Below, piece by piece: positions 1 through 59,555 of a DNA stretch of 64,000 bases. The notes beneath the pieces are model-generated. The model was not told where the DNA came from, did no database searches, and saw nothing but the letters and a program-made list of their open reading frames with translations. The DNA is from Rickettsiales bacterium. GTDB lineage: Bacteria; Pseudomonadota; Alphaproteobacteria; Rickettsiales; UBA8987. The position numbers and the translations under genes were made by a program. The DNA lies in NCBI GenBank assembly GCA_020630095.1, contig JAHDCD010000010.1, forward strand, positions 1 to 64,000, written 5' to 3'. How positions within the stretch are numbered: position 1 is the stretch's first letter; each line of letters opens with the position of its first letter.

Positions 1-29
1 TGGATTCGCCGATTAAGTCGGCGAATGAC
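1..29. repeat. Palindromic element inside bioF
   Basis: The element begins TGGATTC and ends GAATGAC. Its arms ATTCGCCGA and TCGGCGAAT (9 bp) flank the loop TTAAG at 4-26. This is the form of the common intergenic element TGGATTCCCGC...GCGGGAATGAC, but here it is read through in frame as part of BioF, adding about nine residues (DSPIKSAND) just before a conserved segment. It may continue left of the window. Confidence 0.6.
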
Positions 30-248
30 GGCGTTACTCTGTCACCGATAGTTCCAATAATTTTAGGTTTTGATAAAGCTAAAGAAATACATGAACAGCT
101 ACTAGAGCAGGGCATTTACGTGCCATTCATTAAAAGCCCAACAGTAGCAAAAAATACTGAACGTTTACGTATATCCCTTTCAGCTAGTCACTCTAAAGAT
201 GACATTGAGAAGTTAAAGAATTTAATAAAAATCCCGCAGGCGGGGTAA
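1..248 (+). CDS. bioF: 8-amino-7-oxononanoate synthase, C-terminal end (partial)
   Basis: The window opens inside a gene read in the frame of base 3 and stopping at TAA 246-248. The readable end contains SPIVPIILG, then KSPTVAKNTERLRISLSASH, which is the typical C-terminal end of BioF, the PLP enzyme that condenses pimeloyl-ACP or -CoA with alanine in biotin synthesis. The PLP lysine lies upstream of the window. Two oddities: the first 29 bases are a palindromic element translated in frame, and the last residues (KIPQAG) together with the stop lie in another hairpin. bioA is also in this window, about 58 kb away, so the biotin genes are scattered. Family assignment is fairly firm from the C-terminal motif. 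How the N-terminal part reads into the palindrome cannot be seen. Confidence 0.8.
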   Translation, partial: DSPIKSANDGVTLSPIVPIILGFDKAKEIHEQLLEQGIYVPFIKSPTVAKNTERLRISLSASHSKDDIEKLKNLIKIPQAG

Positions 249-57328: not shown

Positions 57329-58267
57329 TTATTTTATGGGTAGTCGCCTAACTTTTACGCCATATTTATCACGCAAAATATCAGGCACACTTCCATCTAT
57401 AATAAGATGTGCCGCACCGAATGCAAATAAGAAAGATTTTCCATTTCCTCTTTTTAGAACTGCGGTAATTTTACGTGCAAAATCTTGGTCTCTATCGCCT
57501 AATATTTTTTGATTAAATTTCTCAGCCTCTTTAGATGATGAATCTTGTGCATATTTAGTTAATAAAAACTTTAATCGCGCTTCATCGCCTTTTAAAAAGG
57601 CTTCCATCATAAGCTCTAAAATACGCGGATTCTTAAACAATGCATCCAAAGTATCATCTAATAAAGTAACGGCTTCATGCTTCTTTAAGCTGTCAAACGC
57701 CTTCATATGCTCCTTTAAATTCTCTAAGCCATAGGCTTTCTTGCGCTTTTGTTCAGCTAATTTCCATATAACTTCATCTAACGAAATAGCGGTTGGATTT
57801 TCAAATTGATGCTTAAATAACGGCAAACTAGCCATTATTGCCCAAACCTTTAAATTATAGAAAATTTTATATCCTAAATTCCTATGAACGGACTTTAAAT
57901 ACCTATCCAATTTATCTACTGTAGTGCGCGGTATATCACGCATTAAATCACGTGGACGAGTTAACGAGTATGTTAAAAATGCCTTATTATCTCTGTCTTT
58001 ATAGTTAATCTCAGTAAAAATTTCATCTACATAAGCAAACACGTTAAGCATTGTAGGTGGCCAATAATAAAGCCTATCATCTGGTAAGTGAATTGTACCT
58101 ACCATATAAGATTCCTTTTTCATCCAAGGTGCAGATATTTCATATAAGAATGGCTTAGTCCATTCGGTTCTAAATTTAGTAGGTTCACCGACAGCTTTCG
58201 CTGAAACAGCTTTTACATTGGCATTAAAAGAAAATAATAATAGAAGTAATGAAAGCAAAAATCGCAT
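57329..58267 (-). CDS. TraB/GumN family protein
   Basis: A 312-aa secreted or membrane-anchored protein with a signal peptide (FLLSLLLLLFSFNANVKA). Family signatures: YMVGTIHLPDDRL, DEIFTEINY, KKAYGLENLKEHMKAFDSL, and near the end SFLFAFGAAHLIIDGSVPDIL followed by VKVRRLP. Eukaryotic Tiki relatives are metalloproteases using the GTIH and GAAH histidines, which are present here. The bacterial substrate is unknown. First gene of the pyrC-comEC-amiC operon. Confidence 0.83.
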   Translation of the reverse strand: MRFLLSLLLLLFSFNANVKAVSAKAVGEPTKFRTEWTKPFLYEISAPWMKKESYMVGTIHLPDDRLYYWPPTMLNVFAYVDEIFTEINYKDRDNKAFLTYSLTRPRDLMRDIPRTTVDKLDRYLKSVHRNLGYKIFYNLKVWAIMASLPLFKHQFENPTAISLDEVIWKLAEQKRKKAYGLENLKEHMKAFDSLKKHEAVTLLDDTLDALFKNPRILELMMEAFLKGDEARLKFLLTKYAQDSSSKEAEKFNQKILGDRDQDFARKITAVLKRGNGKSFLFAFGAAHLIIDGSVPDILRDKYGVKVRRLPIK

Positions 58268-58292
58268 ATAATTTGCTTAAAGGAGAAAAGAT

Positions 58293-59555
58293 ATAAATAC
58301 AAACACAAACATACAGCACGTATGGCTTCCATATACGCAAATGCAAAATGCCCCTGAACTTCACGAGGTTACGGGCGCATCTGGCGCGTATATCCATTTA
58401 CAAGATGGAACGAAGTTAATTGATGGTATTTCTTCATGGTGGTCAACTTGCCACGGCTATCAGCACCCGCATATAATTAATGCTATGCAAAAGCAATTGC
58501 AGGAATTTTCACATGTTATGTTTGCAGGGTTAAAGCATCAGCCAGCCTATATATTGGCTGAGCGCCTAGCTAAGTTAACAAAACTACCGCACTGTTTTTA
58601 TACAGATTCCGGCTCTACCGCGGTTGAAGTTGCCCTAAAAATGGCAGTTCAATATTGGCAAAATAAGGGCGAATATCAGCGTGCAAAATTTATATCATTC
58701 CGCAACGGCTACCACGGCGACACTTTAGGTTGCATGAGCCTTGCCGACCCTGAAGGCTGGATCCATAAATCATTAAGTCATTATATTCCTAAGCAATATG
58801 TTATGGATATCCCGCGCGATGAGTACAGCTTAGCAGAGTTTAAAGATTTAGTAGAGCAAATTGCTCATACTACCGCAGGCATTATAATTGAACCTTTAGT
58901 GCAGGGCGCAGGTGGCATGAAATTCCACGCAGCTGATATTCTAACCGAAATCCATAGAATAGCTAAAAAGCATAATATCCTATTAATTACTGATGAAATT
59001 ATGACCGGCTTTGGGCGCTTAGGCCCAATGTTTGCGGTTGAAGAAGCTGGAATATCGCCAGATATAACTTGCTTAGGTAAAGGTTTAACTGGTGGAGCTA
59101 TCGGCTTAGGGGTAACCATGGCATCCGCTAAGGTTTATGAAGCCTTTTTAGATAACGATATGAGCAAAGCCTTAATGCATGGTCCAACCTTTATGGGTAA
59201 TCCATTATCTTGCGCGGCGGCCAATGCCAGCTTAGATCTATTTGAAGGTAAAGATTCTGAATATAAACCGCTACAAGAAGTTGCCAGAATTGAAAACCAA
59301 ATGCGTGAAGAATTGCGTGCTTTTAAAGATTTAAAGGAAGTTAAAGCCACGCGCTACAAAGGCGCAATAGGCGTTATAGAATTGCATGAAGAATATACTT
59401 CATGGGAAAATACTTTCAAAATCCGTGAAAAATTCGCCAAGCAAGGTGTATGGCTAAGGCCATTCGGCAATATTATCTATATAATGCCACCGTTTATAAT
59501 ATCTGAAGCTCAGCTTTCCAAAATTTTTAAAGTAATAAAAGAACAAGCCTTCTAA
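58293..59555 (+). CDS. bioA: Adenosylmethionine-8-amino-7-oxononanoate aminotransferase with a probable AUA start
   Basis: PLP aminotransferase making DAPA in biotin synthesis. Motifs: DGISSWWSTCHGY, SHVMFAGLKHQPA, YTDSGSTAVEVALKMA, FRNGYHGDTLG, LLITDEIMTGFGR, the PLP Lys in CLGKGLTGG, and HGPTFMGNPLSCAAA. The first in-frame ATG (58341) would remove the conserved QHVWLPYTQM segment, which is encoded in frame just upstream. Between the in-frame TAA (58278) and that ATG there is no ATG, GTG, TTG or CTG; an ATA at 58293 lies 7 bases after AGGAG (58281-58285). I therefore place the start there, giving 420 aa. A sequence error is the main alternative. The 3' end meets the next gene tail-to-tail. 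Confidence 0.88.
   Translation: MNTNTNIQHVWLPYTQMQNAPELHEVTGASGAYIHLQDGTKLIDGISSWWSTCHGYQHPHIINAMQKQLQEFSHVMFAGLKHQPAYILAERLAKLTKLPHCFYTDSGSTAVEVALKMAVQYWQNKGEYQRAKFISFRNGYHGDTLGCMSLADPEGWIHKSLSHYIPKQYVMDIPRDEYSLAEFKDLVEQIAHTTAGIIIEPLVQGAGGMKFHAADILTEIHRIAKKHNILLITDEIMTGFGRLGPMFAVEEAGISPDITCLGKGLTGGAIGLGVTMASAKVYEAFLDNDMSKALMHGPTFMGNPLSCAAANASLDLFEGKDSEYKPLQEVARIENQMREELRAFKDLKEVKATRYKGAIGVIELHEEYTSWENTFKIREKFAKQGVWLRPFGNIIYIMPPFIISEAQLSKIFKVIKEQAF

Follow-up and report, generated by a model that had tools for sequence, protein, structure and literature searches.

In the window, the whole 64,000-nucleotide stretch analyzed here, we found a bioA gene on the forward strand next to a divergently oriented gene of the TraB/PrgY/gumN family (Table 1). 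The window belongs to assembly G000 (1.6 Mb, 13 contigs). The codons that follow the in-frame TAA are AGG AGA AAA GAT ATA AAT ACA AAC ACA AAC ATA, with the two ATA codons at 58293 and 58311, and the frame continues with CAG CAC GTA TGG CTT CCA TAT ACG CAA up to the ATG at 58341. An earlier note on this DNA stated that no ATG, GTG, TTG, or CTG lies between the TAA and this ATG, and a letter-by-letter check bore this out; the two ATA codons are the only ones of their kind in frame before the ATG. The same note placed an AGGAG (58281-58285) 7 nt, counted from its last G, before the ATA at 58293, which is also correct. A near-cognate codon is found at a normal distance from a strong Shine-Dalgarno (SD) sequence (AAAGGAG, 7 nt, ATA). 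With six matching bases, this SD ranks in the top 4% of the genome (49 of 1,252 open reading frames have at least six), and the leader up to ATA 58293 is unpaired in the predicted fold. The TATAAT upstream could be a promoter -10 element, in which case the leader would be about 14 nt long; a promoter scan found no full promoter at this site. A search for RNA leader elements at bioA gave no Rfam match, and the fold had z = 0.17. The ATG at 58322 lies in another frame and was rejected as a start because its reading frame is short and runs into a TGA inside CCCCTGAAC. For a possible phage origin, no similar phage DNA was found.

Table 1. Features at the bioA 5′ end of the window, and genes with candidate near-cognate starts elsewhere in G000 and in the same-family relative G003.
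Feature	Position	Strand	Basis or remark
Divergent TraB/PrgY/gumN family gene	57329..58267	-	own ATG 25 nt from ATA 58293
TATAAT, possible -10 element	58267..58272	+	seen in sequence only
TAA, bounds possible starts	58278..58280	+	in frame with bioA
AAAGGAG, Shine-Dalgarno sequence	58279..58285	+	sequence, SD ranking, leader predicted unpaired
ATA, proposed start codon	58293..58295	+	ATG of relatives at most two codons off; SD 7 nt upstream
bioA (adenosylmethionine-8-amino-7-oxononanoate transaminase), ATA to stop	58293..59555	+	profile matches, conserved residues
First ATG, conserved internal Met of TQM motif in relatives	58341..58343	+	alignment
mraZ, AUU candidate (residue 24 of frame)	G000 C9, L133:9392-9901	-	AGAGG-6-ATT
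xerD-like recombinase, AUU candidate	G000 C5, L125:3581-4456	-	SD GAGGTGA, then ATT
lptF, near-cognate candidate	G000 C5, L148:9357-10421	-	no ATG/GTG/TTG before N-terminus; no clear SD
tmk, AUA candidate	G003 C6, L246:6997-7644		preceded by GGAGAGG; TIGR00041

The bioA product matches the profiles NF004624 (545 bits) and TIGR00508 (524 bits), both above cut-off, and it is a class III aminotransferase by equivalog score as well as by conserved residues. In the stop-to-stop frame, the TIGR00508 match begins at residue 14, which is 7 residues ahead of the ATG at 58341. This agrees with the claim of the earlier note that the conserved N-terminal motif of BioA (QHVWLPYTQM) is encoded upstream of that ATG, and with its warning that a start at 58341 would drop the aromatic residues of the motif; the entire W-x-P-Y would be removed. 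No standard start codon that preserves the conserved N-terminus is found in this gene. All columns invariant across 13 BioA sequences are kept in the window BioA, its branch in the BioA tree is 0.44 (median 0.38; same-family neighbors 0.49 and 0.51), and its identity to the G003 protein (56.9%) lies at the 70th percentile of 296 orthologues. In invariant residues, branch length, and identity, this BioA is ordinary and has no sign of decay or relaxation.

For comparison we used relatives from the same family and order, outside the genus of G000 itself. The neighbors of the window BioA include several assemblies named "Rickettsiales bacterium," and the BioA of one of them is identical to that of the same-family genome G004. 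Counting any ATG, GTG, or TTG in frame upstream of the W-x-P-Y motif, near or far, 103 of 110 bioA loci have an ATG, six have only GTG or TTG, and the window alone has none. In nearly all of the order relatives (n = 29), the H-x-W-x-P-Y motif follows closely after an ATG. The earlier note had proposed to align the ATA position with the closest relatives, and this comparison revealed a standard start there: in the two closest comparable relatives, the same-family BioA sequences MKSKENNIWLPYTQM (G006) and MNYLSQNYPNIWLPYTQM (G001), the ATG lies at most two codons from the position of ATA 58293. The motif Trp is residue 9 in G006 and residue 12 in G001; it would be residue 11 in the window BioA with a start at ATA 58293. 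The ATA start was seen in one genome only among these 110 loci, and it is not kept in relatives in the manner of a regulatory start of the infC type, as the family and order relatives have ATG or GTG/TTG.

The near-cognate start of infC is conserved and autoregulatory, and its product IF3 discriminates against such weak starts. In G000, the infC frame reads TAG GAG GAA ATT ATT AAT AAT, with the layout GGAGG-AAATT-ATT. No ATG, GTG, or TTG precedes the IF3_N domain (from residue 19), and the first ATG is residue 41, inside the N-terminal domain of IF3. Comparable arrangements were found in G004 (AAGGAG-6-ATT), G006 (AAGGAG-7-ATA), and G003 (GGAG-7-ATA, with an ATG three codons later). From these sequences, the family evidently starts infC at AUU or AUA, and the AAAGGAG-7-ATA of bioA has the same SD layout.

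We therefore consider it probable that bioA is translated from the AUA at 58293, through weak, SD-supported, and probably IF3-sensitive initiation. The starts of the relatives, the position of W-x-P-Y, and the sequence quality described below all favor the AUA start that the earlier note had read here. Its remark that AUA initiation is very rare needs qualification, given infC in this family and the other near-cognate candidates in G000, which make AUA look like a tolerated weak start in this organism. The likely course is that the ancestral ATG start of a constrained bioA became ATA. The strong SD, in an unstructured and probably very short leader, would place the ribosome; its pairing would fix the 30S subunit, and fMet-tRNA would start at AUA with a mismatch at the third position, so that Met is expected as the first residue of BioA. 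Such a weak start would be expected to undergo the IF3 check, as at infC. An SD in an unstructured leader combined with a mismatch at AUA would give weak initiation and a low BioA level, which can suffice as biotin is needed in small amounts only. If bioA is translated in this way, the production of a biosynthetic enzyme depends on a weak and probably IF3-checked start. A reassignment of AUA to Met was ruled out: internal AUA codons align with Ile in 51% and with Met in 3% of cases, like ATT and ATC. A TilS-like gene is present in G000 (by motif).

To our knowledge, very few bacterial genes outside infC start at AUA. Most likely, bioA adds to a short list of SD-supported near-cognate starts, a kind that is itself already known. 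It resembles infC in having a strong SD, a spacing of 5–7 nt, a near-cognate start, and no usable standard start nearby. However, infC has a conserved start that serves autoregulation, whereas bioA is a metabolic gene with the ATA in one genome only. In Staphylococcus aureus, AUA starts with extended SD sequences (infC, ccpN, and citZ) reach about 10% of the AUG level, with a maximum of 30% in rich medium for ccpN, and cvfC1 starts at AUU (PMC13009471). The ccpN and citZ genes share with bioA the combination of AUA and a long SD, and citZ likewise encodes a metabolic enzyme, with its AUA limited to one lineage; these cases come from another phylum and were shown by Ribo-Ret and reporters, whereas bioA is not among them and is known here from its sequence (PMC13009471). 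For Streptomyces sigR, PMC5472188 describes a GTC start repressed by IF3, which is similar to the proposed bioA start in that a non-standard codon acts as a translational brake through IF3. The codon differs, sigR is a regulator gene, and the IF3 effect was tested in sigR. In Escherichia coli, pcnB starts at AUU and has low expression through its weak start codon (Binns and Masters, 2002, as cited in PMC13009471); low expression from a weak start is expected for bioA as well, though the codon and the gene differ.

The main rival, which we find unlikely, is that a recent change from ATG to ATA lowered translation to near zero, such that bioA is just beginning to decay into a pseudogene, perhaps because the biotin pathway is failing. 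The occurrence of the ATA in a single genome fits this, as do other broken accessory genes in the organism, such as an hsdM C-terminal fragment (L143:6662-7684) that has no N-terminal part in this frame and is probably a broken restriction-modification gene. Moreover, bioD was not found in G000 by TIGR00347 or PF13500, although the gene could be hidden in a gap or in one of the stretches that read N; PF13500 matched in all six family relatives. The pathway may thus be eroding, which keeps this rival alive and is the main reason why our confidence in the AUA start is not higher. On the other hand, the frame, invariant residues, and evolutionary rate of BioA are all normal, few SDs in the genome are as strong as that of bioA, and infC of this family does use AUU/AUA starts. 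The other biotin genes bioB (on contig C12, by motif) and bioF are open too, and no BioY importer that could replace synthesis was found in the family. The bioF gene spans the ends of contigs C12 and C3 (window 1-236 and L136 on C12, 1-813); joining these ends at their 8-base overlap gives an uninterrupted reading frame that contains a palindromic insert. This insert (TCATTCGCCGACTTAATCGGCGAAT...) resembles the palindromic elements of Rickettsia; nine half-sites occur in the part of G000 read and none in the part of G003 read.

An assembly error, with the genome really having ATG at 58293, is improbable. One change (G to A) would account for the ATA, and an isolated error of this kind is possible. 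As a general cause, sequencing error is unlikely: among 483 conserved open reading frames of G000 compared with G003 (148,106 aligned codons, part of both genomes), none is interrupted, whereas random errors frequent enough to hit two start codons among these 483 would give about 28 nonsense errors in the same codons. Four candidate gene splits in G000 were all antisense shadow open reading frames. Two other start sites are very improbable. The ATG at 58341 is the first standard start codon, with the upstream part then not needed, but it has no preceding SD, it is an internal Met in relatives, and it would lose the motif residues W, P, and Y, none of which varies among the aligned relatives. 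Initiation at the second ATA (58311), which directly adjoins QHVWLPYTQM, is just as hard to credit, as it has no SD at a fitting distance and would leave an N-terminus shorter than those of relatives (Trp at residue 5; shortest seen about 9).

Beyond bioA and infC, we found a small set of genes with candidate near-cognate starts; as it was partly selected by SD, no rate is claimed from it. In G000, mraZ has no ATG, GTG, or TTG before its conserved N-terminus, and position 3 of NF001475 falls at the residue after the ATT. For xerD, found via the SD scan, position 1 of TIGR02225 is at residue 9 and the first ATG is residue 15, inside the N-terminal domain. For lptF, found like mraZ in the census of conserved N-termini, position 2 of TIGR04407 is at residue 8 and the first GTG is at residue 24. 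In G003, the first TTG of tmk is at residue 26, and the readable order relatives have ATG. An ATA candidate in nadD was rejected because an ATG three codons on suffices. These cases may suggest that start-codon choice is relaxed in this family of Rickettsiales-like bacteria, with a few genes per thousand besides infC, some of them essential, starting at AUU or AUA (bioA, mraZ, xerD, lptF, and tmk of G003), perhaps in connection with the initiator tRNA; we regard this as possible rather than probable. If true, gene callers limited to ATG, GTG, and TTG would miss all such starts. If bioA is translated from its AUA, it suggests, together with the other cases in G000, that callers limited in this way assign wrong starts to conserved genes of this lineage, and the set offers natural near-cognate starts that can be put to the test.

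The anticodon stem of initiator tRNAs usually has three G-C pairs. In both G000 and G003, this stem reads tcagg/cctga, which places A29-U41 where G29-C41 would be. Further start candidates are a TrbL-like gene (ACG or ATA) and a prepilin peptidase.
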